Positions 10,350-56,096 of a DNA stretch of 64,000 nucleotides are shown one piece after another. A program made the position numbers and the translations under genes. A model generated the notes under the pieces. The model was not told where the DNA came from. It made no database searches and worked only from the letters and a program-made list of their open reading frames with translations. The stretch is from positions 62,001 through 126,000 of the forward strand of contig NZ_DS483474.1 in the NCBI RefSeq assembly GCF_000154285.1, read 5' to 3'. The stretch's first letter is position 1; every line of letters starts with the position of its first letter. The DNA comes from Amedibacillus dolichus DSM 3991 (GTDB taxonomy: Bacteria > Bacillota_I > Bacilli_A > Erysipelotrichales > Erysipelotrichaceae).

Positions 10350-10358
10350 ATTTTAACC

Positions 10359-11207
10359 TCAATTATCTAAATTTTTAAACAGATGAATTTTATGTTCAAC
10401 TATTTCAGTTATAATATCTAAACAAGGAACTACATTTTCGCGATTTGATATATTTTCTCGATGCTCTTCATAACATTCTTTTGACTTTCTATTCCATTCA
10501 ACAAGCAACTCTGTACCAACATTAAATTTGCGAATACCTAAATTAATTACACGTTTCACATCTTTTTCTTTTACACCTGTTCCTCCATGAATTACCAAAG
10601 GAATATTTACCGCATTGTGTATTTCCTTTAATCTATCAAAATTAAGGTTTGTTTTTGACTTATACTGACCGTGGTTCGTTCCAATCGCTACCGCTAAAGC
10701 ATCTATTCCAGTTTCTTTTATAAAATTAACAGCATCTTCTGGCTCTGTATAACGAACATCTTCTTGAGCTACCGCAATACCATCTTCAGTACCACCAACA
10801 GTTCCTAACTCCGCTTCGACACTTACATTATGCAGTTTTGCATAATCCACCACTCTTTTAGTTCCCAAAATATTTTCTTTAAGTGGAAGCGAAGATCCAT
10901 CAAACATTACAGAACTATAACCTGCATCAATCGCTTTCCTAATCTCATCAAAATCTTTTGCGTGATCTAAATGTAATACAACATTTATGCCATATTCATC
11001 TGCCATTGAACGACAAACAGCAACAAGATTTTTATGTCCCACATAATTCGCAGTACCGCAGCTTGTTTGTATAATGACAGGAGTTTTTTGATTTACTGCT
11101 GCTTTTATAATTGCCGGAAGCATTTCTAAATTATGCGTATTGAATGCACCAATCGCCATATTCAACTCATCTGCTTCCTTTAATGTTTCTTTTAATGTGA
11201 TATACAT
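10359..11207 (-). CDS. Class II fructose/tagatose-bisphosphate aldolase family
   Basis: 282 residues, a little shorter than FbaA and close to GatY/KbaY. Metal-binding histidines are in VVLHLDHAKD (about residue 84), AIGTNHGQY (about 180) and IHGGTG (about 208). VMFDGSSLP and VEAELGTVGG are also family motifs. It cleaves a ketose bisphosphate to dihydroxyacetone phosphate and an aldehyde. It is the first gene of the minus-strand operon, with an AAAGGAGGAAATT ribosome site, and diverges from the RpiR gene across a 268-bp control region. Which hexose bisphosphate it prefers is not decidable here. Confidence 0.9.
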   Translation of the reverse strand: MYITLKETLKEADELNMAIGAFNTHNLEMLPAIIKAAVNQKTPVIIQTSCGTANYVGHKNLVAVCRSMADEYGINVVLHLDHAKDFDEIRKAIDAGYSSVMFDGSSLPLKENILGTKRVVDYAKLHNVSVEAELGTVGGTEDGIAVAQEDVRYTEPEDAVNFIKETGIDALAVAIGTNHGQYKSKTNLNFDRLKEIHNAVNIPLVIHGGTGVKEKDVKRVINLGIRKFNVGTELLVEWNRKSKECYEEHRENISNRENVVPCLDIITEIVEHKIHLFKNLDN

Positions 11208-11422
11208 AATTTCCTCCTTTGATTACAATAATATAAAAGAATAACACTATTCTTCTATATAGAAATTGCATCCATCTCAGCATTAAATTTGCTGAAATAT
11301 ACGGACATCATAATATCAAAATATACGTATGTTTTGACTACACCCATATTATACTTAATTAATATTAAATTACCTCGTTTTCTGTATGAAAATGCATTCT
11401 AAAAATTAAAAAAACAACACCT

Positions 11423-11448
11423 TCATGAATGCTTATTCATGATACAAT
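11423..11448 (+). promoter_or_regulatory. RpiR promoter -10 with overlapping dyad operator
   Basis: TCATGAAT (11423-11430), GCTT, ATTCATGA (11435-11442) form a perfect 8-bp inverted repeat, immediately followed by TACAAT (11443-11448), the likely -10 of the regulator gene at 11476. A looser related sequence, ATGAAAATGCATTC, lies about 40 bp upstream. It is a candidate autoregulatory and operon operator. The rest of the gap (11208-11422) is AT-rich, with a TATAAT on the minus strand near 11350. Confidence 0.55.
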
Positions 11449-11475
11449 ATTATCGCATTATTAGGAGGTTACATT

Positions 11476-12222
11476 ATGTTTATTCAAATTGACAAAACCA
11501 TTTATGAAAAACTTTCTGAAGCCGAAAAAGGTGTTATTCAATTCCTTAATCAAAATGAAGAAAAAATACCCTATATGAGTATTACCAATATTGCCGAAAA
11601 GACTTTTACATCTCAATCAACTGTTTCCCGCACTATCCAAAAATGTGGTTATCAAGGAATCTCGCAATTACGCTTTGCTATATCTCAACAAGAACAAATG
11701 AAAAATCATCACGAATCTAGTTACGGTGTTAATAATATTCTTTCAAAATCTTATCGTGAAAGTACAAAAACAATTGATAATATTAGCCCTGTTGCTATGT
11801 TACAGACTATTGAATTTATGAAAACCGCAAAAAGAATTTTTATTTTTTCTAGAGGCTTTACCGCATTAATTGCCGAAGAATTCCAAATGTATTTACAGTT
11901 ATTAGGTTACAATGCAATTATTGTTAAAGATGTAAAATGGATGGAAAATACAGAGCGAATCGTAAATACAAATGATGTTGTTTTTATTTTATCTGTACGA
12001 AATACAACACCTGAGCTTGCTACATCGGCTAGAGCCGCCAAAAGAAAAGGTGCTAAAGTAATAAGTTGTTGTTGTAAATCTCCTTGCGAATTAGAAAACT
12101 TTTCAGATATCATCATTTACGGTCATTCAGAACAAATTATGAAAGCTAGCGGAATGACTGTATACTCAAGAATACCTTTATTGATTATCACACGAACAAT
12201 TATTGAATATCTTGGACAATAG
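11476..12222 (+). CDS. MurR/RpiR-family transcriptional regulator
   Basis: 248 residues. The N-terminal HTH_6 domain shows SITNIAEKTFTSQSTVSRTIQKCGY-like spacing (about residues 35-65), followed by a SIS sugar-phosphate isomerase-like domain from about 105 (RIFIFSRGFTALIAEEF, then VVFILSVRNTTPE). Members sense phosphorylated sugars. It is divergent from the PTS operon at 3551-11207, which it presumably controls. The ribosome site TAGGAGGT is 7 nt before ATG. Followed by a terminator at 12276-12330. Confidence 0.88.
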   Translation: MFIQIDKTIYEKLSEAEKGVIQFLNQNEEKIPYMSITNIAEKTFTSQSTVSRTIQKCGYQGISQLRFAISQQEQMKNHHESSYGVNNILSKSYRESTKTIDNISPVAMLQTIEFMKTAKRIFIFSRGFTALIAEEFQMYLQLLGYNAIIVKDVKWMENTERIVNTNDVVFILSVRNTTPELATSARAAKRKGAKVISCCCKSPCELENFSDIIIYGHSEQIMKASGMTVYSRIPLLIITRTIIEYLGQ

Positions 12223-12275
12223 TTAAAGCCTATATCTTATTCTATATTTTTTACTTTCTCATATCCAATAGCATA

Positions 12276-12330
12276 AGAAAACCATATGATTTATTATGAT
12301 GACTAATCACAATATTTCATCTGGTTTTCT
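12276..12330. terminator. Bidirectional terminator between rpiR-type gene and DUF1667 gene
   Basis: AGAAAACCA (12276-12284) pairs with TGGTTTTCT (12322-12330) with a secondary CAT/ATG pairing inside. T-runs occur on both sides and the element ends directly at the stop of the convergent gene. Confidence 0.65.
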
Positions 12331-12681
12331 TTAATCAACATCTTTAGTAACAATTAAATCCGCATCACTTTGACAAATATGCTTTATCAATACATCACCT
12401 CGATGCAACGGTGCTTTTGCCTGAACCTGATTGATAATCTGCATGATTTCAAAAATCTTATCTTTCGCAACATCACAGCTCGTTTTCACACTGACACGTC
12501 TTTCTTTCGAATTTAACAGTTGAACTGTAGTGGTAATCGTACGTGTCGGATTCACTAGTTCTTTATGCCCATACTCAGCTCCCTTAGGACAACTATTGCC
12601 TGTAACAGAGTAATCATTGGTTTCATCTACTTTTAAATGACAGCCCTTGGGACAAACAATACAAATCAGCTCTTTCATCAT
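12331..12681 (-). CDS. DUF1667 zinc/iron-binding partner of GlpA/GlpB-type oxidoreductases
   Basis: 116 residues. The cysteine pattern CIVCPKGCHL (residues 7-16) and a further NSCPKGAEYG (about 29-38) are typical of DUF1667 proteins, which almost always follow a GlpA-like and a GlpB-like flavoprotein gene. The fourth-cysteine context suggests metal or Fe-S binding. Its ATG directly abuts the stop of the upstream flavoprotein gene, indicating coupled translation. The probable role is an electron-transfer or structural subunit of the complex (inference). Confidence 0.85.
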   Translation of the reverse strand: MMKELICIVCPKGCHLKVDETNDYSVTGNSCPKGAEYGHKELVNPTRTITTTVQLLNSKERRVSVKTSCDVAKDKIFEIMQIINQVQAKAPLHRGDVLIKHICQSDADLIVTKDVD

Positions 12682-13947
12682 TTAGTCCTCCTGTTTTAAA
12701 GATACAGTTAATGTATCGCCTTCTATTTTATCCATCAAAATCTTGGGAATCATCACTTTTTCCATTTCTCCCGGTGCTACGTGTTCCCTTTTAAACCTTG
12801 CTATAATCTTATGTTCATCTCGAACCTCGATAGCAACATTTTCACCGACATTGCGCACACGGAATGACAATTCTACTCCCTGATCCACAGCATCAAAGCG
12901 AATCCTCTGCGGTACAATATAGCCTATACAATCTCCCGGCTTTGTATTCAAAACTCTTTCGCTATGGAACGCACCATGCTGAATGTATTCTCCTGCTGCT
13001 TTTCCTGCCTTTTCACTTTCCGCACTGACAAAATCAACCAAATCATGGACATGCACAACATTGCCGGACGCAAAAATACCGGGTATGCTTGTTTCCATAT
13101 TTTCATAAACCACCGGTCCGTTTGTCCGCGGGTCCATTTCAATCGAAGCCTGTCTTGTTAATTCGTTTTCCGGAATCAATCCTACGGACAATAACACACA
13201 ATCACATGCAAATTCGATTTCGGTTCCGGGAATCGGATTTTTATGTTCGTCTACCTTGGATACAATTACCTTTTCCACGCGGTTTTTCCCTTGGATATCG
13301 GTAATCGTATGGGATAGATAGAGCGGTATATCGTAATCATTTAAGCATTGCACAATATTTCGATTTAAACCATTTGAATAAGGCATCAATTCTACACACG
13401 CCAACACCTTTGCACCCTCCAATGTCATACGTCTGGCCATAATCAAACCGATATCTCCACTTCCTAAAATAACTACACGTTTTCCCGGCATATAGCCTTC
13501 TACATTCACATATCGCTGTGCAGCTCCTGCTGTAAATACACCGGCAGGACGATCCCCCGGTATCGCAATGGCTCCTCGTGTTCGTTCTCGACAACCCATA
13601 TTCAAAATCAAAGCTTTTGCCTGCAACACCATATAGCCATGTGTTTCACTGGTACAGTAAACAGTTTTATTTGTATCAATCTCAATCACCATGGTATCCA
13701 ATAAAATTTCGACATTCGTTTTCTTAAGCAAATCCACATACTTCCCGGCATATTCCGGTCCTGTCAATTCCTCTTTAAAATGATGTAGTCCAAATCCATT
13801 ATGAATACACTGATTTAAAATTCCACCAAGCTCTTTATCTCTTTCAATTACCAAAACCTTATTTGCACCATGTTCACTAGCAGCAATCGCACTTGCCAAT
13901 CCTGCCGGACCCCCGCCAATAACAATTACATCATATTGTTGCTTCAT
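12682..13947 (-). CDS. FAD/NAD-dependent oxidoreductase, GlpB-like
   Basis: 421 residues from ATG 13947 (AGGTG six bases upstream); an in-frame GTG at 13956 is less likely. The FAD motif is VIGGGPAGLASAIAA near the N-terminus, the second nucleotide motif is VVILGSGDIGLIMARR about residue 155, and GIFASGNVVHVHDLVD at about 285 closes the FAD site. The layout is that of the pyridine-nucleotide oxidoreductase paired with anaerobic glycerol-3-phosphate dehydrogenase-like subunits. A beta-rich C-terminal tail follows. It sits between the GlpA-like and DUF1667 genes. Whether glycerol 3-phosphate is truly the substrate is open, because no glycerol kinase or facilitator gene is nearby. Confidence 0.87.
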   Translation of the reverse strand: MKQQYDVIVIGGGPAGLASAIAASEHGANKVLVIERDKELGGILNQCIHNGFGLHHFKEELTGPEYAGKYVDLLKKTNVEILLDTMVIEIDTNKTVYCTSETHGYMVLQAKALILNMGCRERTRGAIAIPGDRPAGVFTAGAAQRYVNVEGYMPGKRVVILGSGDIGLIMARRMTLEGAKVLACVELMPYSNGLNRNIVQCLNDYDIPLYLSHTITDIQGKNRVEKVIVSKVDEHKNPIPGTEIEFACDCVLLSVGLIPENELTRQASIEMDPRTNGPVVYENMETSIPGIFASGNVVHVHDLVDFVSAESEKAGKAAGEYIQHGAFHSERVLNTKPGDCIGYIVPQRIRFDAVDQGVELSFRVRNVGENVAIEVRDEHKIIARFKREHVAPGEMEKVMIPKILMDKIEGDTLTVSLKQED

Positions 13948-13948
13948 A

Positions 13949-15385
13949 CTAATCACCTATTTCTTTGGTTTGTCCAAGCAGAACCAAAGAACCTTTCTTG
14001 TCCTTCAAAACATCTTCTTGCGAAATATTTAACTCCCTGGCAATAATTTCCTGTACACGTGGTCCGCAGAATCCACCTTGACATCTTCCCATTCCCGTAT
14101 TGCATCGTCTTTTGATTGCATCAAGTGATGCTACGGTTGGACTTCGATGAAGAGCATCAATGATTTCCCCTTCGCTAATTGTTTCACAACGGCAAATAAT
14201 ACGTCCGTATTGGGGGTGCTTTTCGATCCACTGTGCTCTTTCAGCATGCGACATCTCTTGAAAACGAACAAGTTTCCTTGTAACTTTTGCATTTGGATTG
14301 CTTTCGGTAAATAAACCCTTTGTCTGTATTGCTTTTACCATATCAATTGCAATCGCACTGGCACTTGATAAGCCCGGAGATTTCATTCCTGCTATCTGAT
14401 AAAATCCTGAAACCTTGGATTCACCAATTACAAAATCATGATAATCACTACTTCTTGCTCGAATACCGCAGAATGTGCGGATATTTTCTCTGAAATTAAT
14501 ATTCGGTACAGACTTCAAAGCTTTTTCCTTTACAAAGGATAAGCCTTCTAAGGTAGTCGCTGTATCCGTTTCTCCACAATTTTCACTTGTCGGTCCTACG
14601 ATTAAATTACCATGTACCGTAGGAGCTACAAGAATTCCTTTTCCCTTTGCTGTCGGACATTGGAAAATAACGTGATGCACAAGTCCTCCTTGTGTTTTAT
14701 CTAACAAATAATATTCACCTTTGTTTGGCTGAATATGATATTCCGGTTCCATTACCATGGAAGTTATCTTCTCACAGGCAACTCCTGCAGCATTTACAAC
14801 TGTTTTCGCTTCATAAACGCCTTTTTCGGTTGTTACCAAAAAATAATCAGCTTGCTTTTGAATAGCAGTAACAGCTTCCTCCAAATGAAGATCCACACCA
14901 TTTTGAATTGCCAGTTCACTATAAGCAATAGCCAGCTCCCATGGATTGACGATACAAGCTGTCGGTGCATACAATGCCGCAATGGCATTAGGATTTATAT
15001 TTGGCTCCATTTCTTGCAGTTCTTCTTGATCTATGATGTGCATTCCCTCAACACCGTTTTGTAGACCGCGTTCGTAGATAGCATGTAAAGTTGCAAGTTC
15101 TTCTTTTTCAAACGCTACTACTAAAGAACCGATTTTTTTACAATGTACATCTAAATCCTCGCAAATTTTCGGAATCAGCTTATTGCCTTCAACATTATAC
15201 TTTGCCATATATGTTCCGTTTTCAGGATCATATCCTGCATGAATAATGGCGCTATTTGCTTTTGTTGTTTCATCGGCAACATCATTATTCTTTTCCAACA
15301 ATAAAACGCTCCCCTGATACTTACTTAACTCAAATGCTAACGAAGCTCCGCTTATCCCCGCTCCGATAATCACACAATCGTACAT
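13949..15385 (-). CDS. GlpA-like FAD-dependent dehydrogenase with BFD-type Fe-S domain
   Basis: 478 residues. The N-terminal FAD-binding motif IIGAGISGASLAFEL and the DAO-fold segment TKANSAIIHAGYD identify a glycerol-3-phosphate dehydrogenase/L-2-hydroxyglutarate oxidase-like subunit. The C-terminal BFD-type [2Fe-2S] domain has CRCETISEGEI (about 405) and RRCNTGMGRCQGGFCGP (about 440), i.e. four or five cysteines. It oxidises a 2- or 3-phosphorylated polyol or hydroxy acid and hands electrons to the partner flavoprotein. It is the first gene of a three-gene operon with a GGGAGGTACG ribosome site, divergent from the LacI-type gene. Confidence 0.87.
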   Translation of the reverse strand: MYDCVIIGAGISGASLAFELSKYQGSVLLLEKNNDVADETTKANSAIIHAGYDPENGTYMAKYNVEGNKLIPKICEDLDVHCKKIGSLVVAFEKEELATLHAIYERGLQNGVEGMHIIDQEELQEMEPNINPNAIAALYAPTACIVNPWELAIAYSELAIQNGVDLHLEEAVTAIQKQADYFLVTTEKGVYEAKTVVNAAGVACEKITSMVMEPEYHIQPNKGEYYLLDKTQGGLVHHVIFQCPTAKGKGILVAPTVHGNLIVGPTSENCGETDTATTLEGLSFVKEKALKSVPNINFRENIRTFCGIRARSSDYHDFVIGESKVSGFYQIAGMKSPGLSSASAIAIDMVKAIQTKGLFTESNPNAKVTRKLVRFQEMSHAERAQWIEKHPQYGRIICRCETISEGEIIDALHRSPTVASLDAIKRRCNTGMGRCQGGFCGPRVQEIIARELNISQEDVLKDKKGSLVLLGQTKEIGD

Positions 15386-35677: not shown

Positions 35678-35809
35678 TTATTTCACTTGAGTTAATCCAT
35701 CACCACTTAAACTAGTTACTTTGAATGTTAAAGTATCTGTAAAACGAGAGCCAGGTTTTTCATTCTCTACAATTTTATCCAATTTTTTCCATTTTTTTAT
35801 TTCTTCTTT
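35678..35809 (-). pseudogene. 3' fragment of a gene for a probable secreted or pilin-like protein
   Basis: The frame ending at TAA 35678-35680 reads VENEKPGSRFTDTLTFKV then TSLSGDGLTQVK. It has no start and is cut off by the decayed recombinase gene, with which it overlaps. The TDTLTFKVT style resembles C-terminal beta strands of Gram-positive surface proteins, but 40 residues do not allow assignment. It lies upstream of, and in the same direction as, the envelope locus, and was possibly its first gene. Confidence 0.45.
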
Positions 35810-36325
35810 CTACCCATTTCGTGAATGTGTTATGATTAGTATTCAACTGTTTTGCAGCTTCTCTTTTACTTATTTTATGTTCTGCTCACAAATTGTACAC
35901 TTCATTAAAATTTTGATGCCCTTTGCTTAATATTCTCCCGCTCGATTTGTGCTACATATGAGAGAATCTGTATTACTAACCCTGATATCAATTTCCTCGT
36001 TAAATCATTTGTTTCCACACGAGTATCTAGTAAAGGGCAATCAAGTACGATAATATCAACATTTCTTTCTTTCGTTAAATATCTCCATTGCTCCATAATT
36101 TCATCGTAATTTCTTCCAAACCTATCAATTGATTTAATGTAAACTTCATCTCCCTCCAGCAATTTTTTCACCATCCTTTGATAATTTTTTTCTTTCAAGA
36201 TTTTTCCCAGACTGCTTATCCACAAACATATTCTTATCTTCGATTTTTAATTGCCTAAGTGACTCCACTTGTCTGTCGATATTTTGATCTTTACTTGATA
36301 CTCGTATATATCCATATTTTTTCAC
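35775..36325 (-). pseudogene. Decayed serine recombinase (resolvase/invertase family)
   Basis: It starts at GTG 36325 after AGGAGAGGTTT. Resolvase catalytic Ser in YIRVSSKDQNIDRQVESLRQ, then SGKN; the frame shifts at a 7-A run (36185-36191). The second frame continues VYIKSIDRFGRNYDEI, DTRVETNDLT and LSYVAQIERENIKQR. After further damage near 35920, the C-terminal HTH is readable as ISKREAAKQLNTNHNTFTKW. At least two frameshifts plus stops make it non-functional unless rescued. It is related to Tn3-type resolvases and Pin invertases. Confidence 0.8.
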
Positions 36326-44567: not shown

Positions 44568-44597
44568 AAGCATAGTTAACAAATTATGCTTTTTTCT
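44568..44597 (+). terminator. Terminator of the 43986 gene
   Basis: AAGCATA (44568-44574), 10-nt loop, TATGCTT (44585-44591), then TTTTCTTTTTC. The second arm and T-tract overlap the lysine codons at the end of the convergent minor pilin gene. Confidence 0.7.
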
Positions 44598-45258
44598 TTT
44601 TCACAGCTAGCTTTCTTATAACACTTAACATAGCTAATCCTGAAACTAATAATAATACTATCCATAATGTTATATTCGTGTTATCACCTGTTCCAACTGA
44701 ACTATCTGGAACATTAGGAGAAATAGGAACTTCGTTCTCATTTTTCTCAATAAATTTTGGCTTAGAATAGACATTAAATATCTCACTGCTATCTTCAATC
44801 ATAGGTATGGATATTAAAAAAGGTTCTGAACAATATTTACTATCATCACTCTCTTTTTGAGACACTAAATATAAGCCTAAATTTAAATTAGAAAATTGAA
44901 CAACTCCATTGTTATTCGTATTTTTTTCTTCACTAAATGAAATATTCTCACTTTTCATATATGCTTGTAATTCATAACTTGTTTTTTTCATTTGTGATGC
45001 ATTCATATTTGTAGAAATATTCTTGAAATATTTAAAATCTTCCACATTGACAAATTCTCCGTTAACAATATCTGCAACTTTAACAATTTGAAATGGCATA
45101 TCGACAAACTCAATGAGTTTACCATCATCAAGATAATGAGCATACAGAGAAATGGAGCCTATATTTTCTTTAGCAAAAACTGTTCTTGTAGGCAAAAAGA
45201 TAAATAGCATACAAATGATTATGATTTTCAAATGATTTTTATTTACTAACCACTTCAT
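44584..45258 (-). CDS. Minor (basal-type) pilin with sortase signal
   Basis: 224 residues. Signal peptide at about 8-29 (HLKIIIICMLFIFLPTRT). A Cna-B-like domain lies between, with GVVQFSNLNLGLYLVSQKE (about 120). The C-terminal sorting signal deviates from LPxTG: VPDSSVGTGDNTN, then a membrane helix (ITLWIVLLLVSGLAML) and basic tail. In sortase-assembled pili such subunits serve as the base for wall anchoring. It overlaps the sortase gene by 20 nt, end of the operon. Confidence 0.85.
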   Translation of the reverse strand: MKWLVNKNHLKIIIICMLFIFLPTRTVFAKENIGSISLYAHYLDDGKLIEFVDMPFQIVKVADIVNGEFVNVEDFKYFKNISTNMNASQMKKTSYELQAYMKSENISFSEEKNTNNNGVVQFSNLNLGLYLVSQKESDDSKYCSEPFLISIPMIEDSSEIFNVYSKPKFIEKNENEVPISPNVPDSSVGTGDNTNITLWIVLLLVSGLAMLSVIRKLAVKKKKA

Positions 45259-46087
45259 GTTTTTTCCTCCTTACCTTCCATAACAAAAGCATTAATGCTA
45301 AAACTGTAAACCCAATGAGAAGAATTTGAATTTCAAACGGTATATGAATTCCGTTATTAACTTCATTGGCTTGTTCTTCAACCGCTTTTTGATAATCAAT
45401 CCTTGTTCCTCTAACTAACAATCGATGAGTATTGACAGAATAAGGAGTACAAGTAATCAATGTTACATAGTCTTTTCCATCTATAATTTCAAGATCTTTT
45501 GTTTCTGTTGGTAAGACGATCTTGATTTGATCAATTTTATAAGCACTTGTATTTCCCAGCACTTCCATATAGAAAATATCTCCAATTTCTAACAAATCTA
45601 AATCCGTAAACAAACTGGAGCTTGGCAAGCCTCTATGACCTGATAAAGCCACATGGGTACTCTTACCCCCAACCGGTAAAGAAGTTCCTTGTAAATGTCC
45701 GACTCCTTTTTGTAAGACCTTATCTGAAGTAGTATGGTAGATTGGTAATTTAACGTCAATTCTAGGAATCTGAATATATCCCATGACTCCATCTCCATTA
45801 GAATTAAGCAAACTCATGTAATACTTATCTACTTTTTCAATACTCATAAAAGGATCATACAATTCCCCTTTTCCTATCAAAGAGGAATTGTATGCTTGTG
45901 CTTCTTGAAGCATTTTATTTTTTGTCTCTTGATCCAATCCTACAATAGATTTTTCATACGATTGAATGACTTTGGAGCTATGAATTCTTGACAAATAATC
46001 ACTAACTGTGGGATAGAGCAATACACCAACAAAAAACAATAATGCTATGACCCTGATTCCATCAAAAATTCTCTTTTTTCTATTCAT
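45239..46087 (-). CDS. srtC: Class C sortase (pilin polymerase)
   Basis: 282 residues. N-terminal membrane helix (about 8-26) and C-terminal helix (about 252-272), typical of class C. Catalytic residues: His151 in ALSGHRGLP, Cys213 in TLITCTPYS and Arg222 in NTHRLLVRGTRI. A lid-like segment KGELYDPF (about 73-80) precedes the core. It links pilin subunits through lysine-LPxTG bonds outside the membrane. Lies 8 nt after the major pilin gene. Confidence 0.94.
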   Translation of the reverse strand: MNRKKRIFDGIRVIALLFFVGVLLYPTVSDYLSRIHSSKVIQSYEKSIVGLDQETKNKMLQEAQAYNSSLIGKGELYDPFMSIEKVDKYYMSLLNSNGDGVMGYIQIPRIDVKLPIYHTTSDKVLQKGVGHLQGTSLPVGGKSTHVALSGHRGLPSSSLFTDLDLLEIGDIFYMEVLGNTSAYKIDQIKIVLPTETKDLEIIDGKDYVTLITCTPYSVNTHRLLVRGTRIDYQKAVEEQANEVNNGIHIPFEIQILLIGFTVLALMLLLWKVRRKKHEVVSK

Positions 46088-46095
46088 AATATGTG

Positions 46096-47532
46096 TTATT
46101 TATTTTCATTTAATTTATTCTTTTTATTTGATTTCATAAATGAATATAAAACTGCTAAGATTCCTCCTACACCAACAACGGTAAATAACACTGTACCCAT
46201 TCCACCGGTTTCCGGTAATAATGAACCTTTGTTGTTATTTACTGTTACATCGTTACCAGTTACTGTAACATCAGTTCCATTATTATCAGAAGATGCTTCA
46301 ATTGTGATAGTTGTAGGAGTTGTTAATTTGTTATATCCATCTGGTGCTTTTGTTTCCACTAATGTATATTTTCCATCATCTAACCCCTTAACAGTAATTT
46401 TACCGTTAGTTGGTGATACTAATGTAGATGTTTTAGTTAATTGATTATCTGCATCAGTAGCAACTCTATATTCACCATTTCTTAAATCAACAAATTCAAT
46501 TGGATCACCATTTGTATCAGTTCCTCTATATAAGTTGAATTCTGCTCCTGCTAATGTTTCAGTTCCATCTCCATTTTTCTTTGTAATAGTCAAATTATGT
46601 GTTCTTACAATTACTTTATCTGGAGTTCCCTGAGTTAAATGATCAGGATCATTTCCATATTCAACATTTGCAGTATTGGTTTCTTTACCAGCAGTAACTG
46701 CGTTTTCATTTAACACTGCATCATATTCAAATACGATAGCTTCATTTGCTTGATCTTTATATTTAATAAAGTCATTAATTTCGATAGTAATTTCTTGTCC
46801 TTTAACTGTTACTGTATACTCAGTGTCTGTAAGTTGTTTATTACCGATTGTAACTTTTTCATTTAATGTTTCTTTTGTTACTGTTAATCCTGAACTCATA
46901 GTATCTGTTAATTTAAAAGTATATTTATCAAATCCTGTCATGTTTGGAACCATAGACTCAACTTTGAATCGAATAGGATCTCCAACTTGAGCAGAATTCC
47001 ATTTATCTCCATCAACAGTTTTATCTACATCAGGAGTTTTCCCTTTTAGATAAACATCTTGAGTGGCTTTTGCGACTGTTGTAAACATTGGAGTATAGTT
47101 TTCACCACTAGGGATAATAACATAATATCCTGCATCTAAATTCTCGATAGTATATGTTTTGGCATCTGTCCCTATTAATGTTTCAACAGCAACTAAGTTT
47201 TCGGTTTTAACATATTCTTTCACTTTATTTTGAAAAACCGCAGTCTTTACATTTTTTTTAATATAGTTATATGCCTGTTCATCAGTAGCATAACTATTTT
47301 GCGTAAAGAATTTTCTAAAATTATCTGCAATCGTATAAGCTGCTGATTCCCCATCTGCTGTAACAGTGGCATTCATCATCTTATAAACCTTAAATTCCAC
47401 TCCGTTAACATTGTGTTTCCCTGTGTGCAAGGTAATTGTTCCTTGTGTTGCGGCAAATACATTTGTTACCATAGAGAACATAACAACAAATGTAAGTGCA
47501 AGTGTTCCTAGTTTTTTAAGCATGTCTTTCAT
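46096..47532 (-). CDS. Major pilin, LPETG-anchored (SpaA-type)
   Basis: 478 residues. Signal peptide ends near TNVFAATQG (about 28). N-terminal domain, a pilin-like region DVYLKGKTPDVDKTV (about 165, lysine candidates for polymerisation), isopeptide-type domain with DTMSSGLTVT and YDAVLNENAV, then a Cna-B domain (ITKKNGDGTETLAGAEFNLY) with the E-box TLVETKAPDGYN (about 400). Sorting signal LPETG at about 439, membrane helix, positive tail. The start overlaps the adhesin gene end by 17 nt. Confidence 0.92.
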   Translation of the reverse strand: MKDMLKKLGTLALTFVVMFSMVTNVFAATQGTITLHTGKHNVNGVEFKVYKMMNATVTADGESAAYTIADNFRKFFTQNSYATDEQAYNYIKKNVKTAVFQNKVKEYVKTENLVAVETLIGTDAKTYTIENLDAGYYVIIPSGENYTPMFTTVAKATQDVYLKGKTPDVDKTVDGDKWNSAQVGDPIRFKVESMVPNMTGFDKYTFKLTDTMSSGLTVTKETLNEKVTIGNKQLTDTEYTVTVKGQEITIEINDFIKYKDQANEAIVFEYDAVLNENAVTAGKETNTANVEYGNDPDHLTQGTPDKVIVRTHNLTITKKNGDGTETLAGAEFNLYRGTDTNGDPIEFVDLRNGEYRVATDADNQLTKTSTLVSPTNGKITVKGLDDGKYTLVETKAPDGYNKLTTPTTITIEASSDNNGTDVTVTGNDVTVNNNKGSLLPETGGMGTVLFTVVGVGGILAVLYSFMKSNKKNKLNENK

Positions 47533-50500
47533 TTTTCTTTCTTCCTTTCTTTAAACTATAAAATACTGCTGCTATACCTATCATACCTACTAAGGTAAAT
47601 ACATACGTTCCTATTCCACCTGTATCAGGTAAAAATGGAATATGTGAATTGGTAATCGTAATAGTGAATCCATCTTCTGAACTCTCTATTGTTGTCGAAT
47701 AGCCATCAACCTTTTTTTCACTTAATTGATAGGTATAATAAGCGTGTGTACCACCATCTAATACTTTATAGGCTTCTAATCCTTTCACAGTCTCTCGCCA
47801 TATATTTTGCATATCATCTGATGGTTTTACTATAATCGTCTGTTCAAATTGTTCATCTTTAACCACTGTGCCATTTGCTTCGTATGTTCTTGTTAAAAGA
47901 AGTTCGATTTGAGCTGGGCGAATATTTTCAAAATTGCCAAAATCTTTCCAAATCTTGTTGATTGTTAAATTGATTAACTCATCGCAAGGATCTTGCATAT
48001 CAGATGGCGGTGGAGTTAAATTTTCCTCATTATCCGATGTTTTTTTATCTTCCATCAATACTGCTTTTGCTGATGAAACATAAACCCCTGCTTTTTCCTG
48101 TATACCAACGCTAGAAAGAATAGCATTTTCGAACTTAACATATTTATCTATATCATTAATATGTGAAATTACAAACTCATTCCAATTTATATTCGATGAT
48201 TCTGCAGTTATCGTTTTACCACCGACTATAAGAGAAGTTAACTCGTTATGATCACGATAAACACGATATCCATTGTGATTTCCTTCAATATTTTCAACTG
48301 TATTAAAATCGTATGCTGAATCTAAGGAAGTTTCTCCTACAAACGGACCAACCTTATCTTTTATACCACAAATGGTATCTGCATAATACATTTGATTATT
48401 TTCAAATAATCCTTCATCATTATAGCCTACAAAACCACCGGCATATCCTTCTTGATCTGTGCCATCTTTTTCATCATTTGCACCGCCACCAAAAACATCA
48501 TAGCCAATTGAAATTCCTGTAATTGAAGAATTTTTAATACTTGTACGATTGGATTTGATTAATCCGATATTGATATTCTTCTTATCTTCCTCACTTATAT
48601 GATTTCCCTCTGTACTTGTACAAGGTATCTCAATATAACTGTCCCCAATATGTATTTGAGCTAGATCACTTGTTCCATCTCCGTTGTTTCTTACTAAAGC
48701 AACAGAAATCGGTAATCCTAGAAGTGTTACGGAAAGTGTTTTTCCATCACTTAACAATTTGATCTCTAAAAGTTTTCCAAGACCTAAATCAATTACACCT
48801 AAGTTTTGCAAATCACCAACATATAAAATATCCAATAATTTATTTACAATACTCAAAACAGGATTTAATAATGTAGTGGAACCAGCATCAATATCTGCCA
48901 AGTAAGAGAATGTTGTTCTTCCAACAAACCCGCCGGCAATTTGATCACTGTTTACCTTCTTGATGTTTGTAACATGACTATTATTTATTTTTGCAAGATC
49001 CGCAAGACCTGCAAACCCACCGGAAATAGATTCCTTTCCGTTTTGTGAATTTACAAGAAAACCTTCTTGGATTCCATCAACCTTACAATCATCACAATGA
49101 GAACCAAAGTTATCCAACACTCCAGCTGTGGCATTTAACAAGCCGGTAAGTGCGCCTCCGGTTGCTGCTTTATCTAAATCAACAACTCCGCTTTTTCCAA
49201 GATGTCCGATAAAACCACCGCTATAATTTAATGCATTTACTTGATTCAAATTCGTAACGCTTGCATTTTTTACAGATCCGTTTAATAAGCTTCCGCCAAA
49301 ACCTCCGGTATTTCCCGTTTGTACTGTACTTTCAAAGCCACCTGCTTCGTTTTGCGTATTGGCACTGACAATTAGACCATGCTCAGTTGATCCACGCACT
49401 GATGCATGATAAATATATGTTCGAAAGGCATCTAGTACATCTAATTCACCTAGTTTAATGAGACCTAAAATACCATTTGATGCATTGTCCCCTACTTCAG
49501 CAACGGCTGCCACATCAGCTAGTCCAAAGAAACCGCCAACGTGTTCTCCGCCAATTACTTTTCTTATATTGTTTACAATCAATGAATCGCTATTGCTACC
49601 TTTATCGCCTAATACCGCTCCACTCATATTTCCTGCAAAACCACCGCTTGCATAGGTATATTGCGTGTTTGGATCATTTTCTTTTTGATATCTTCCGTCA
49701 ATTGTAATACCCCAATTATCCCATGCATCTACTTTGGCATATTTTATTGTAGATACTGTTGCATTTAATAAAGAAGCTAACTTATCCGGATTTCCTAAAA
49801 TAGGTTTTAATAATATCGGAAGCAATCCGTCATTTGAACCGATATTTACTTCTGCAGCACTTCCTGAAAGGATACTTCCGACAAAGCCGCCGATCGTATT
49901 GGTTCCTTTGACTGTTTTTAATTTTTCAATCGAACAGAAATTATCTTCTTTTCCTTCGATTTGACCACCGATGATGATACCTGCAAAACCACCGGCATTT
50001 CCTTGTTGATTTTTTAAATCCGTTCCGTTAGCAAGGATCGTTGCTCCTGAACGATAGCCGTAAGCAGAGGAAGTCTTAATCACCGGTACAAACGTCTGTA
50101 ACACCGGTAAAGAACCTACAACATCAAGATCTCCTATTTGAATGCCACCGACATTGGCTACACCGGCACTTGACATCTCACCGACAAACCCGCCACTGCT
50201 TCGATAAGCAGTAACTAATTTTATATCGTGTGCTTGCCCGGAAGTTACAACTCCTCCGTCCATTCTTCCAACATAACCACCGGCACTGCCACCTTGCGTT
50301 GCTAATGTACCTGCGATTTCTCTAGCAGCCTTAACATCATATCCATAAGCATATTTTTCAATAATTCCATTTAACTGTTCTTGTGTTTCTACTTTTCCTA
50401 ATTCTTGTAGCTGCTGACCGTATGCTCCATTGACTCCAACTACTCCTACCCAAGCGTTCCATACATCAACGGTTAATTTTCTTAATGGTCCATATACCGC

Positions 50501-53500
50501 TGTGTTTGTTTCCGTAGAATAAACAGCTCCAAGAGCAGACAAAGGATTGCTAATATTGATAATACCAAATAAAATATGCAAATTTCCTGTATCTGCAACA
50601 TTTGCATTTTCTGTTCGGCCACTAAAACCACCGGTGAATTCATATCCATAGACATTTCGAATACGCACTGCTGCATTTTCTTTTAAAACAGTAGGCTTCT
50701 TTTTATTCCATTCCCTTTCAGACATTCCTTCGATTCTTCCACCAATGTTATGTCCAACATAACCACCAGCCAAACCTCTTTCACGTGTTTCATCACTAGC
50801 AGCATTTGCACGAACTGCACCACCACAAGGAACAGATGTGGTTTCTGAATTGTAAATCATTGGGATAAATGATTGAAGAATTGATAACAGATTTCCTTCA
50901 ACCTCTAATAAACCGCCTAAAATATCAGCATTTCCTATAACGCTTGCCACATTTCCCGGTTGCATTCTACCAACATATCCACCGGCCGTTTCTTGACCGA
51001 TAATATATTCAAAATTATAAGCATTGCAATCTTGAAGCGATGAACCATCAATCGATCCTGCATATCCACCGGAATGACCTTGTAGATCATTGCCAGCTTT
51101 GAAGTTAGCAAGTACGGAATATCCTCCTACTTCACCTAAAACATTTGAATGTTCAATTTGTGATGCCACAACATCTAACGCTTGTGTTACATCATTTAAA
51201 CCTAAAACATTACCAAGAACGCCTAACCCTGAACCTAACGCAGCCGAGCTTCCTATATCTAATTTACCAACATAACCACCGGCATATCGTAATCCTTTGA
51301 TTGCATATTTTGATTGATCAGAAAAATAGGAAGATCCATCATTGCTATTTAAATCACTTGGCGCTTTAACCGTTGTATGTCTTAACTGATTTACATGGGA
51401 ATTGCTGATTTTTAATCCACTTCCATATCCGACATAACCTCCGGCACTACCGGAATTACTATCATTTTCATCTGTTGAAGTTACTTCAACAATAAGTCCA
51501 TTTGAAGAAACCCCTGCTGAATTGATGATTGGAATATAGACGTTTAAAACACTTAACAGGTTACTGGCATTAATGTTTAAGAGTCCATTTAAAATGGATA
51601 AATCCCCGGCAGTCGCTAAACCGCCCGAATAGATTTTTCCACCAAATCCACCGGCATAATATGTTCCTTTAACATTTAATATATTAGATACTGCATAAGG
51701 CTTATCTAACCCTTTGTTATCTATATATCCGCTTTGCATTTCTCCGATAAAACCACCGGCATAAGCTGCACGTACTTGCGCAACCTCTGCAGATTCCGGT
51801 TGGTAAGCAACGGTTGTATTTTTAAAATCAGAAACCAAATATGGAACAGCATTTAACAAGCCATTAATTCCTAAAAGCTTTAGTGCCTCTGTATCCTTAT
51901 TAGCAGCATCAGCTAAGCCTCCGGTTTCTGTTGCACCTGCAAAACCTCCGGCATATCCGCTTATCCCATCAGCTGTAACATCTTTTAGTCCTTTTACATG
52001 AGAATTACGAATATGTACACTTGTTGATTTTCCGATAAATCCACCGGCATAATATTTTGTTACATCAACATCAGATGTTTTTGTTCCTAATGCTTTTACT
52101 GTAAATCCATTTGTTGTTCCCTGCACATCACATTCGCTAATATCCAAGACAAGCCCTTGTGCCAGATCAAGCAAGTTTGCTATTTTAACTAAACCAAGTA
52201 TATTCAATGCCCCGGTTTCAGCTAAACTTCCAGTTCCACCATAACCAGCAAATCCACCTGCATAATTGTTTGCTTCTACTTTTTGAAGTTCACTGATATG
52301 CACATTTGAAACTGTTCCACCCATTGCTTTACCTGCAAATCCACCTGCATAGTCTTGGGTTGCATGAATAATTCCCGGTGCATTAATGCTCGATATCGTT
52401 ATATTTTCAATTTCAAACCCTAAGAAATTTCCAATTCCTAAAGTTTTATTTAAGATTCCTCCGGCACTTGCTGTTTTTGCTTCTCCGATAACTCCACCAC
52501 TACGAGATTGAGCGGAAATTTCTTTTAAATTAGAGATCGTATTCTTTCTTCCTAATACTGTGTAATTTAATTCACCTATTACATTTTTCCAAACATAGGA
52601 TTTTACTTTTAAGTCAGAAGAAGAAATAATTTTTACGCCATCTCCTTGACCAACCATTCCTCCGGCATACTTATCATTTGCTTTGACAGTTAATGAACCT
52701 GTTATTTCATTTCCAGCTAGGACACTCGGACTAATCCCTGTTAAAGACAGCAATACATTTTCTTCATCTTGCGTTAATATCCCACTTAATAAACTTCCTA
52801 ATAATCCTGTTAAGTCCTTTTTTCCAGTATAGAAATCTTTTAAAGAGATTGATTGTCCTAAAGCCGCAATTCCACTAATTCCACCGGCATAAGAATCGGC
52901 TGTAATATTGGTTGTTCCAGATACACTGCAATCAACGATAAAACTGTTTGCTAACGCCCCGCTGATTCCTCCACCATACTTTTCATTTGCATGAACACTT
53001 AAATTATTGGTTTCTACACGACCGTTTAACAAAAATGTATTAAGTTGAAATGCGTTGAATAATTCTATACCTAAACCATTTAACACCCCGACTAATTCAG
53101 CATTTGCGCTATATCCCGCAAATCCACCTGCCATATTTTTTCCTTCAACAGTTAAACTATTCGCTTTGATTGAAGAATTTTTGATTTGTGTTCCAACTGC
53201 TTTTCCAACAAAACCTCCTTGATAATTATATGCTATATTTCCGACTGATAAATTATTGCCACTATTATCAAGATAACAATTCGAAATGGTTGGGCTTTTA
53301 TAGCCGGTTGGAATAAGTTTGTTTAAATCAATAATGTTTCCATCTAAGAGTACCTCAATCAATGTCCCTAAATCTACAAAAGGAATAATATTTAAAATTT
53401 CTTCTAGAATCGTAGTAAGGGTTCCTAAAGCATCTTGTAAGCCACCATATTCTGTAATTCCTTCAACATGCCCGACAAAGCCACCGGTTAAGTCATTTAC

Positions 53501-55243
53501 GTTACTTATTTTTATTACATTTTCTACAACACAATCTTCGACAGATACATCACCGCTAATTCTACCTGCAAATGAACCAGTCGCAAAAACACTTGGATCT
53601 CCATCACCATTAGGATTCAGTAAATTTCCTAACACATCTCCAAGATCCCCTAACAAGATACCTAAAATTGGCTTCAAAAGATCTAAAAGTTCTTGTATTA
53701 ATCCTCTACGATCCACAATCTCGCTAGTTGCATTTGTTACAGAAATATTTTGAAGCTTTATATTCTTTACAGAAACTTGTTGGTCTACAACACCTATTTT
53801 TTGAGTAGATTTTGACATGATACTTCCAAAAAATCCTACACCTGATTGTTCTTTTATGTCGATCGGAGAAGTTTGATTAACTGTAATATTAGAAATTACA
53901 GATTGCCTTGTATTTACAATTCCACTATCATTCCATAAAGTACTTTCAGCATTTTTATCTTCAGAAACAGCACCGACCATTGTGCCACTAAACATCAATG
54001 GCTTCCACTCAACGTTATTTAAGTCAATATCTCTAAAAATAATATAATTCGCATCACTGGAATACTTTAAATCTTTATACTCCGCCTTTATTTTACTTTC
54101 ATCAATATTTTTATCAGGTTGATTCGTTTCGTGATTATATCCGACGATTTCGGATTCTCCTAATAACAACCCGAGAATACTACCTAAAATATCAACAACT
54201 GAATCTAATAATCCTTTATTGTAATCAATGTGCATAAGTTTATTTGAACTGTTCTTATCTTCGTAGTATTTAAACTTATCGCCATCATAGGTAATCTCGG
54301 TATTAAAATCCGCATCTCCCGGATAAAGAGGTTTATATGTTCCAGATCCAATTCCTAACGCTGGTTTCTTATATAAAAACAAAGTAGGTGTTACTGATTG
54401 ATTTGTCCCGATTGCTCTTAATTGTTGTTCATTACCAATTAAAATGTACCTTATACCATTTAGTTCTTTATACACCTGTCCTATATAATCTCTACCGGAT
54501 AACTCTGCATTTCCCCATCTGTTATTCTGCAAAACCTCTATTTCTTGTTTCTTTTCTTCTTGTTCTTTTTGTACTTTTATTGCCTCAGTTGCAGGTCGTA
54601 AAGCAGTAAAGTTTTTTGAAAGAACATAAGTATGTTCATTGCTATATGTTACATAATCTTGTGAATTATTCGGATAGATCAATTTGCCTTGTCCAAATAG
54701 AGTTACATCATAATCTAATGATAATATCGGTTCTAATGAAGCTGAATCACTTTGTATCAAATCTAATTGATATGAATTATATATGTAAATAGTATCTGTA
54801 TCTTCATCATATAATTGAGGGGAGCCTGTTTCTTGTTTACTAAGAAATGAACCATTAAATCCTTCTGGCAAATTCCATTTTTCTCCATTTAATGCAATAT
54901 CGTTTTCTAATATGTAAGTTGCGTCTAATGAATATGTAATTGTTTGATTATCAACAACAATATCCTTTCCCAAACCAAAGCCTTCTTTTGTTTCGTCCAA
55001 ATCCTTAACTTTTTGATTAGTACCTATGGCTTTTAATTGTTCAAGATTATAAATATGAATTGCTTCGTCCTTATATAAATGTGAATAGTCCTCAGATAAT
55101 TCAGCCGGAGCTATATAATCTTCATTCTCATTTACTTCAGCATATATATTTTTATCTGAAATCTCATATACATTAAATGAAGAGAAAGCCACTACTAAAC
55201 TCAACATCAACAATAATAATCGTGTCGCTTTTGTCTTTTTCAT
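47516..55243 (-). CDS. Giant sortase-anchored adhesin, probable pilus tip
   Basis: 2575 residues. Signal peptide at 1-36. Most of the protein is built from about 30 blocks each carrying a glycine motif of the form (A/S/T)GG(F/Y)xG, such as AGGFAGKAMG, AGGYVGRMDG or SGGFIGHLGK, spaced about 60-90 residues. These resemble GLUG-type repeats of beta-helical adhesins, with irregular inserts rich in Leu/Ile/Asn (LLGSLLSGILT). A Cna-B domain lies near 2425-2535, then LPDTG at about 2538, a helix and basic tail. First intact gene of the pilus operon; the start has AAGGGG in front. Probably displayed at the pilus tip, ligand unknown. Confidence 0.9.
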   Translation of the reverse strand: MKKTKATRLLLLMLSLVVAFSSFNVYEISDKNIYAEVNENEDYIAPAELSEDYSHLYKDEAIHIYNLEQLKAIGTNQKVKDLDETKEGFGLGKDIVVDNQTITYSLDATYILENDIALNGEKWNLPEGFNGSFLSKQETGSPQLYDEDTDTIYIYNSYQLDLIQSDSASLEPILSLDYDVTLFGQGKLIYPNNSQDYVTYSNEHTYVLSKNFTALRPATEAIKVQKEQEEKKQEIEVLQNNRWGNAELSGRDYIGQVYKELNGIRYILIGNEQQLRAIGTNQSVTPTLFLYKKPALGIGSGTYKPLYPGDADFNTEITYDGDKFKYYEDKNSSNKLMHIDYNKGLLDSVVDILGSILGLLLGESEIVGYNHETNQPDKNIDESKIKAEYKDLKYSSDANYIIFRDIDLNNVEWKPLMFSGTMVGAVSEDKNAESTLWNDSGIVNTRQSVISNITVNQTSPIDIKEQSGVGFFGSIMSKSTQKIGVVDQQVSVKNIKLQNISVTNATSEIVDRRGLIQELLDLLKPILGILLGDLGDVLGNLLNPNGDGDPSVFATGSFAGRISGDVSVEDCVVENVIKISNVNDLTGGFVGHVEGITEYGGLQDALGTLTTILEEILNIIPFVDLGTLIEVLLDGNIIDLNKLIPTGYKSPTISNCYLDNSGNNLSVGNIAYNYQGGFVGKAVGTQIKNSSIKANSLTVEGKNMAGGFAGYSANAELVGVLNGLGIELFNAFQLNTFLLNGRVETNNLSVHANEKYGGGISGALANSFIVDCSVSGTTNITADSYAGGISGIAALGQSISLKDFYTGKKDLTGLLGSLLSGILTQDEENVLLSLTGISPSVLAGNEITGSLTVKANDKYAGGMVGQGDGVKIISSSDLKVKSYVWKNVIGELNYTVLGRKNTISNLKEISAQSRSGGVIGEAKTASAGGILNKTLGIGNFLGFEIENITISSINAPGIIHATQDYAGGFAGKAMGGTVSNVHISELQKVEANNYAGGFAGYGGTGSLAETGALNILGLVKIANLLDLAQGLVLDISECDVQGTTNGFTVKALGTKTSDVDVTKYYAGGFIGKSTSVHIRNSHVKGLKDVTADGISGYAGGFAGATETGGLADAANKDTEALKLLGINGLLNAVPYLVSDFKNTTVAYQPESAEVAQVRAAYAGGFIGEMQSGYIDNKGLDKPYAVSNILNVKGTYYAGGFGGKIYSGGLATAGDLSILNGLLNINASNLLSVLNVYIPIINSAGVSSNGLIVEVTSTDENDSNSGSAGGYVGYGSGLKISNSHVNQLRHTTVKAPSDLNSNDGSSYFSDQSKYAIKGLRYAGGYVGKLDIGSSAALGSGLGVLGNVLGLNDVTQALDVVASQIEHSNVLGEVGGYSVLANFKAGNDLQGHSGGYAGSIDGSSLQDCNAYNFEYIIGQETAGGYVGRMQPGNVASVIGNADILGGLLEVEGNLLSILQSFIPMIYNSETTSVPCGGAVRANAASDETRERGLAGGYVGHNIGGRIEGMSEREWNKKKPTVLKENAAVRIRNVYGYEFTGGFSGRTENANVADTGNLHILFGIINISNPLSALGAVYSTETNTAVYGPLRKLTVDVWNAWVGVVGVNGAYGQQLQELGKVETQEQLNGIIEKYAYGYDVKAAREIAGTLATQGGSAGGYVGRMDGGVVTSGQAHDIKLVTAYRSSGGFVGEMSSAGVANVGGIQIGDLDVVGSLPVLQTFVPVIKTSSAYGYRSGATILANGTDLKNQQGNAGGFAGIIIGGQIEGKEDNFCSIEKLKTVKGTNTIGGFVGSILSGSAAEVNIGSNDGLLPILLKPILGNPDKLASLLNATVSTIKYAKVDAWDNWGITIDGRYQKENDPNTQYTYASGGFAGNMSGAVLGDKGSNSDSLIVNNIRKVIGGEHVGGFFGLADVAAVAEVGDNASNGILGLIKLGELDVLDAFRTYIYHASVRGSTEHGLIVSANTQNEAGGFESTVQTGNTGGFGGSLLNGSVKNASVTNLNQVNALNYSGGFIGHLGKSGVVDLDKAATGGALTGLLNATAGVLDNFGSHCDDCKVDGIQEGFLVNSQNGKESISGGFAGLADLAKINNSHVTNIKKVNSDQIAGGFVGRTTFSYLADIDAGSTTLLNPVLSIVNKLLDILYVGDLQNLGVIDLGLGKLLEIKLLSDGKTLSVTLLGLPISVALVRNNGDGTSDLAQIHIGDSYIEIPCTSTEGNHISEEDKKNINIGLIKSNRTSIKNSSITGISIGYDVFGGGANDEKDGTDQEGYAGGFVGYNDEGLFENNQMYYADTICGIKDKVGPFVGETSLDSAYDFNTVENIEGNHNGYRVYRDHNELTSLIVGGKTITAESSNINWNEFVISHINDIDKYVKFENAILSSVGIQEKAGVYVSSAKAVLMEDKKTSDNEENLTPPPSDMQDPCDELINLTINKIWKDFGNFENIRPAQIELLLTRTYEANGTVVKDEQFEQTIIVKPSDDMQNIWRETVKGLEAYKVLDGGTHAYYTYQLSEKKVDGYSTTIESSEDGFTITITNSHIPFLPDTGGIGTYVFTLVGMIGIAAVFYSLKKGRKKNERHA

Positions 55244-55266: not shown

Positions 55267-55668
55267 CTATTGTTTCAATATTTCTTCAACAGTAATTGAA
55301 GATAATCTTTCCTCCATAATTTTTTGTAGAAAACAATAAGTTTTTCTAACAGAACAATATTCTGTTGCACATCGACTACAATACTTATCCGGTTCTAAAC
55401 ATCGGTTTATCTTAATGGTAGGTTCCATCAATTTTATAATATCTAATAAGTTAATCTGCGCTTTGTCTTTCGCAATGGAAAATCCACCATTTTTTCCATT
55501 CTATACATTTATCAATTTTTCATTTTCTAACTTTTTGGTTACCTTTAATATATAATGCTAAGGGATACACAAATTCTCTGGTAACTCTTTTGAAGTTGAT
55601 TTGCCTTGTGATGTAGCTAGATATAAAACAATTCTAATTGCATAGTCTGTTGTTATATTCAATTGCAT
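55267..55668 (-). pseudogene. Rrf2-family regulator with two in-frame TAG codons
   Basis: ATG 55668 after TTGGAGGATTTAT. The frame runs 133 codons to TAG 55267, broken only by TAG at codon 37 (55558-55560) and codon 56 (55501-55503). The parts read as an Rrf2 protein: LNITTDYAIRIVLYLATSQG, then IP-*-HYILKVTKKLENEK, V-*-NGKNGGFSIAK, and a cysteine cluster (CLEPDKYCSRC, then CS, C) suited to an Fe-S cofactor. Ends 23 bp before the adhesin start. Both stops can arise from CAG (Gln) by one change. It probably used to sense redox or iron and control the pilus operon. Confidence 0.85.
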
Positions 55669-55765
55669 ATAAATCCTCCAATTTTTCTATAACCAAACAT
55701 GTCAGGGTATGTATATCGCAAAAAAACAAACGGATTTTTCACCCTTTTATTTAATGGTTTATAAT

Positions 55766-55876
55766 GTACACATTTTTTACCAGTATCTTCTAAGCTTAAA
55801 TATATGGCTTATTAAGTCATTTAATATGATAATACATAATTTTCCAAAAAACAATAATTTGGTAAAAAATGTGTAC
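55766..55876. repeat. 111-bp segment bounded by perfect 17-bp inverted repeats
   Basis: GTACACATTTTTTACCA (55766-55782) and its exact reverse complement (55860-55876) enclose 77 bp of AT-rich DNA. It lies 98 bp upstream of the Rrf2-type gene that heads the pilus operon. Inside, on the minus strand, is a possible promoter (TTGGAA, 17 nt, TTAAAT) directed at the operon. Candidate invertible switch or MITE-like insertion. The rest of the gap to 56096 shows nothing I can assign. Confidence 0.7.
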
Positions 55877-56096
55877 TTTTTATTGAAAAAACGTTATGAT
55901 TTAATTTTTTATCTATTTATTTAAAGTATTATGATTTATATGTAATAGGCTTCTGCCTTCACATTTACCAATTTTTATTCACTTACCATAATTGATAGAT
56001 TTCATCAAATTCTTTTCCTTATGTCTTATTAGTGTTAGCAATATCGGTGTTACAAATATGCTCATTTTATTTACATACACCTTAGAAGCATAAAAG

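Follow-up and report, generated by a model that had tools for sequence, protein, structure and literature searches.

The short segment that lies between inverted repeats upstream of a sortase-dependent pilus operon, in the 64-kb stretch of DNA analysed here (the window), very probably acts as an invertible promoter belonging to a mobile, partly decayed cassette for phase variation. As read from the sequence, such a cassette would comprise a small serine recombinase, an invertible segment of ~100 bp, an Rrf2 regulator, and a sortase-dependent pilus operon. The recombinase would cut each arm at its 2-bp centre, turning the segment so that the promoter faces either the operon (ON) or back to the recombinase (OFF). 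In the genome that contains the window, the recombinase acting in cis is deleted except for a C-terminal stump and the Rrf2 gene is disrupted, with the pilin genes left open. Because of these two losses, the switch would now be either locked, probably in the ON state, or flipped in trans by an intact relative of the enzyme, encoded on contig 2.

An inverted core between colinear flanks

The left arm, GTACACATTTTTTACCA, occupies positions 55766–55782 of the window, and its exact reverse complement occupies positions 55860–55876; the two enclose a core of 77 bp (55783–55859, no strand assigned), just as the first-pass annotation had described. Among repeats separated by 20–200 bp, this 17-bp arm pair is the sole perfect inverted repeat of at least 13 bp in the 64-kb window, and no 17-bp inverted pair arose in dinucleotide-preserving shuffles of the whole window (0/100) or in shuffles of the local intergenic region (0/2000). 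The first-pass annotation had suggested searching the genome for other copies of the arm. In the 2.19-Mb assembly the arm occurs exactly twice without mismatch, these being the window pair, and no further copy was found in the whole genome at 1 or 2 mismatches; at 3 mismatches, 12 more arm-like places appear, which is the level of a reversed-pattern control. The window segment is short, is flanked by recombination sites in inverted orientation, and lies upstream of a surface gene.

The region was searched for in 195 genomes of the family. In G006, a genome of another genus, we found one match spanning the greater part of the region, plus an opposite-strand match that covers the segment only. 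The core of G006 (L046:12252–12328), when reverse-complemented, is identical to that of the window (77/77), and for the stretch bounded by the putative crossover points (window 55770–55872) the agreement is 102 of 103 bases. The flanks, by contrast, are colinear but diverged, with 324/399 identical positions in the Rrf2 gene (81.2%), 721/880 at the start of the adhesin gene (81.9%), and 65/86 in the leader. The simplest explanation is that the segment was inverted at the arms. The genes of G006 are arranged in the order of (i) conjugation genes (a coupling protein, a TraG-like ATPase, and a cell-wall hydrolase); (ii) an intact recombinase of 203 aa; (iii) the arms; (iv) an intact Rrf2 gene; and (v) the genes of the adhesin, the pilin, the sortase, and the minor pilin. 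Two integrase-like genes, the first of which is below the Pfam cut-off, lie beyond the pilus genes.

The core was present in 3 of 315 genomes of the order, namely the genome of the window, G006, and G195, which belongs to another family; the core pattern had no match (0) in the viral contigs. G195 has an intact recombinase and an intact Rrf2 gene, and its adhesin is split over several frames. Its core shows about 82% identity and has the G006 orientation. The arms of G195 (GTACACTTTTCTTACCA on both sides) are identical to each other and differ from the window arms at two positions on both sides, which is expected if the arm pair is kept matched. In the comparison with the window, G195 is closer than G006 in the Rrf2 gene (358/399) and the adhesin gene (700/800) but farther than G006 in the core. 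The window core therefore seems to have been exchanged separately from its flanks. In the operon-side (far) arm of the G195 locus, a ~5-kb insertion with transposase-type genes (L137, about 9420–14550) parts the switch from the Rrf2 gene and the operon.

The segment is thus found in one orientation in the window and in the other in G006 and G195. The genus of the window and that of G006 are represented by one genome each, and this contrast is one between genera, not within one strain. The first-pass proposal that the segment is invertible is supported by the inverted core of G006, which a serine recombinase adjoins, and by the inverted cores of related cassettes described below.

Decay of the window cassette and a relative on contig 2

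A DNA search of the genome with the region returned contig 2:279478–279587, which is 79% identical to window 55906–56016 and forms the 3' end of an intact gene for a 200-aa serine recombinase. A gene of this kind therefore survives in the window as a stump. This C-terminal remnant of the cognate recombinase (a pseudogene at about 55906–56016, minus strand) has a frame interrupted by stops, adjoins the arms, and stands at the position of the intact gene in G006. No intact recombinase gene adjoins the window segment; because only the stump does so, the locus was classified as a decayed member of the serine-invertase phase-variation cassettes of the SZO08560 type.

On the other side of the segment, the start codon of the regulator (ATG, 55668–55666) follows the arms at about 97–98 bp, in line with the 98 bp of the first-pass annotation, which had, however, overlooked two in-frame TAG codons in the regulator frame. 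This Rrf2-family gene (55267–55668, minus strand) is a pseudogene; in G006 the orthologue is intact and has a Pfam Rrf2 match. The operon, also on the minus strand, consists of (i) an open frame for a giant cell-wall-anchored adhesin of 2575 aa (47516–55243) with Cna_B and Gram_pos_anchor matches, which had no relative in the viral contigs; (ii) a major pilin of the SpaH/EbpB family (46096–47532); (iii) a class C sortase (45239–46087); and (iv) a minor pilin-like protein (44584–45258) with a GramPos_pilinD1 match barely above the cut-off. Since the recombinase has been deleted and the Rrf2 gene is broken while the pilin genes are open, the operon has outlasted its control.

The segment is more likely than not a frozen relic in a single orientation, which would leave the pilus operon permanently on (or off). 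The stops in the recombinase stump, the two TAG codons in the Rrf2 gene, and the open frames of the 2575-aa adhesin, the pilin, and the sortase are all consistent with such a relic, whereas the presence of an intact relative of the enzyme in the genome and arms without mutation argue against it.

The recombinase on contig 2 is itself adjoined by inverted repeats, the arms of which hold copies of GTAGACATWTTWTnCCA, close to the arm motif of the window, and past these repeats lies a surface protein of 1081 aa that contains SHIRT and Ig-like domains. Each of the contig-2 arms (L013:13633–13678 and 13790–13835) comprises two tandem site-like units, and more than two arrangements may therefore be possible at this switch. 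A promoter-like TAGACT-17-TAAAAT faces the surface protein.

Action of this intact 200-aa enzyme in trans on the window sites, which would keep the switch live, is conceivable, though we regard it as rather unlikely. Along its length, the contig-2 enzyme shares 83% identity with that of G006, and the match takes in most of the DNA-binding C terminus; the sites of the contig-2 switch have the same half-site shape; and both window arms are still perfect despite the loss of the cis enzyme. However, the central dinucleotide is AC in the window and AG on contig 2, and the perfect arms may merely reflect a recent loss of the enzyme.

The first-pass annotation had expected any inverting enzyme to lie elsewhere; an intact relative does exist on contig 2, but the enzyme remnant that adjoins the arms was overlooked. 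It had described the recombinase at 35775–36325 as broken and as the only serine recombinase in the window, where the remnant is a second. The broken gene at 35775–36325 was rejected as a partner of the segment: it belongs to the same enzyme family, but no such arm pair was found in its vicinity. Over 99 aa, its part at 35905–36225 shares 65% identity with the contig-2 enzyme. A further recombinase, at C3:103265, was also rejected; it has no such arm pair and is located, as judged by eye, among phage-like genes.

Crossover sites and promoters in related cassettes

The order of recombinase, inverted arms, Rrf2, and surface protein also occurs on the Enterococcus faecalis conjugative plasmid pGTC3 and in two further genomes (G200 and G231), and an intact recombinase adjoins the segment in G006, G195, and pGTC3. 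Other Bacillota also have related cassettes. We collected 79 recombinase loci from a scan of named genomes and 3 from a scan of viral contigs; 78 of them (75/79 and 3/3) were long enough for analysis and 4 were too short. An arm pair matching at 15 or more of 17 positions was found within 400 bp after the recombinase in 33 of the 78 loci, compared with 1/75 before the recombinase and 2/234 in shuffles. At the closest loci with detected arms (L051–L062), long proteins with a signal-peptide-like start come next, and more distant recombinase loci precede other genes. In a second sample of 52 loci, mostly around 50–60% identical, 3 were too short; such arms were found after the gene in 3 of the remaining 49 and before it in 3 of 47, that is to say, without excess. 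The link between arms and recombinase is therefore a feature of some members of the enzyme family.

Two pairs of these loci, L084/L102 and L078/L109, have mutually inverted cores with a TGATATAAT element inside. L084 and L102 otherwise differ little. One such switch is inverted between two Oscillospiraceae MAGs. In all four loci the switch, with its strong TGATATAAT, precedes a conserved protein of ~290 aa with no assigned role, so the targets of such switches are not only surface proteins.

Several related sites are composed of a 12-bp half, a 2-bp centre (AC or AG), and a second 12-bp half, and this 12-2-12 layout agrees with the site geometry of serine recombinases. Modelled on related loci such as L067, two putative 26-bp crossover sites, neither with an assigned strand, can be placed in the window. 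The operon-side site (55756–55781; GGTTTATAATGT-AC-ACATTTTTTACC) contains the left arm, and the recombinase-side site (55861–55886; GGTAAAAAATGT-GT-ACTTTTTATTGA) contains the right arm; the 2-bp crossover centres would be positions 55768–55769 and 55873–55874.

The window core is predicted to carry a promoter, for which the top heuristic score in the present orientation designates TTGTTT-17-TATCAT (55826–55854, minus strand). The score of this candidate, 5.85, is below the shuffle median of 6.14 and was obtained with approximate sigma-factor weights. Its counterpart in G195 is TTGATT-17-TATCAT. Because the candidate faces the pilus operon in the window and the recombinase in G006 and G195, we tentatively assign the ON state to the window, and the switch is probably ON now.

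Several relatives have a clear promoter within the segment or across an arm; the window offers a weak candidate. The spacing of −10-like hexamers was analysed in all 52 elements with arms matching at 14 or more of 17 positions and in six added by hand, G195 being outside the 52, and again in 49 elements after the near-identical L056, L057, and L106 had been dropped. In 13 of the 49 deduplicated elements, a −10-like hexamer and the arm hexamer TAGACA/CAGACT are spaced by exactly 17 bp; the count is 0/49 at a spacing of 16 or 18 and averages 1.5 at other spacers, and shuffled cores yielded an average of 1.4 and a maximum of 8 in 300. This −10 never occurs at both ends of a core and faces the gene in 4 elements and the recombinase in 9; it points toward Rrf2 in E. 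faecalis and toward the recombinase in G231. In the second locus sample, the 17-bp spacing was found in 3 of 14 elements with arms of at least 14/17; one of them, L181, would seem to be the L052 locus again. The fixed distance of the −10 from the arm hexamer suggests that the crossover site provides the −35 box in part of the family. This arrangement is absent from the window and G006 elements.

These features can be combined into a joint reading that we consider doubtful as a whole. The crossover site of these invertases would itself be the −35 box, its hexamer T-AG-ACA spanning the 2-bp cut, and only one end of the core would carry a −10, at precisely 17 bp inward; each inversion would dismantle the promoter and rebuild it facing the opposite way. 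The window cassette would be a derived orphan whose promoter is internal. The contig-2 enzyme would still flip it in trans, and its core would stem from a G006-like element through exchange at the crossover points.

Compared with an invertible promoter, it is improbable that inversion makes or removes a transcription terminator and leaves the promoter unmoved, as in a cwpV-like switch. Arm length and position are similar to those given for cwpV in the available part of its description, and the core promoter of the window is weak by score; however, no terminator-like site was found inside the window segment, and clear −10 elements stand at fixed spacing in the cores of related cassettes. The least plausible origin, a MITE or insertion-sequence scar, which the first-pass annotation had listed as an alternative, would account for inverted arms flanking a short AT-rich segment but is rejected on account of the single genomic copy, the arm having no other copy in the genome, and is at odds with G006, where the core stands inverted at the corresponding site, next to a recombinase.

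Known switches and biological meaning

The closest known case is the SZO08560 switch of Streptococcus zooepidemicus H70, and the window locus is a partly decayed member of that kind. According to the accessible part of the 2009 report (PMC2654543), a promoter segment at SZO08560/SZO08550, ~115 bp upstream of an LPXTG surface protein, is bordered by GTAGACTTTA/TAAAGTCTAC repeats and adjoined by a recombinase gene; five reads were reversed, RNA measured by RT-qPCR was 44-fold higher in the forward than in the reverse orientation, and the recombinase is missing in S. equi. These repeats resemble the arms of the present cassettes, and the loss of the recombinase in S. equi parallels the decay in the window. 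The two differ in their target, which is a single surface protein for SZO08560 and a pilus operon for the window, and in the Rrf2 gene between switch and target of the present cassettes, which that part of the report does not mention for SZO08560.

In cwpV of Clostridioides difficile, as far as described in the accessible part of PMC2784873, arms of 21 bp stand 195 bp apart, the tyrosine recombinase RecV is encoded elsewhere, the promoter is outside the segment, and a terminator was proposed. Shared traits are a surface protein gene preceded by inverted repeats, the inversion of DNA, and ON/OFF control. The first-pass parallel with cwpV holds for arm length but not for the enzyme family, since both the recombinases next to the segment in the relatives and the window stump are small serine invertases, unlike RecV.

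The Mpi master invertase of Bacteroides acts on many promoters, whereas the present cassettes have one local segment per enzyme. The Mpi family model (NCBIfam NF009949), which describes small serine recombinases of ~200 aa, is matched end to end, but the scores of 49.6 and 38.4 bits are far below its cut-off of 272 and do not indicate membership. The Resolvase domain is common to the present enzymes, Hin/Gin, and Sin/gamma-delta, the nearest solved chain being Sin (2r0q) with Gin also matched, but the targets and arms of these systems are unlike those of the present cassettes. The word "serine" is absent from the accessible text of a gut inverton survey (PMC11892184), and no paper on the present pilus cassette was found among the open-access papers searched.

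With this cassette, the few published serine-invertase switches of Gram-positive surface genes that we found are joined by an operon-scale pilus switch, which in G006 neighbours conjugation genes, and the window locus illustrates how a switch decays after the loss of its enzyme. In the relatives, the distance of 17 bp from crossover site to −10 provides a simple rule that would predict ON or OFF from sequence alone. If the contig-2 enzyme works in trans, one enzyme would switch two surface loci per cell.
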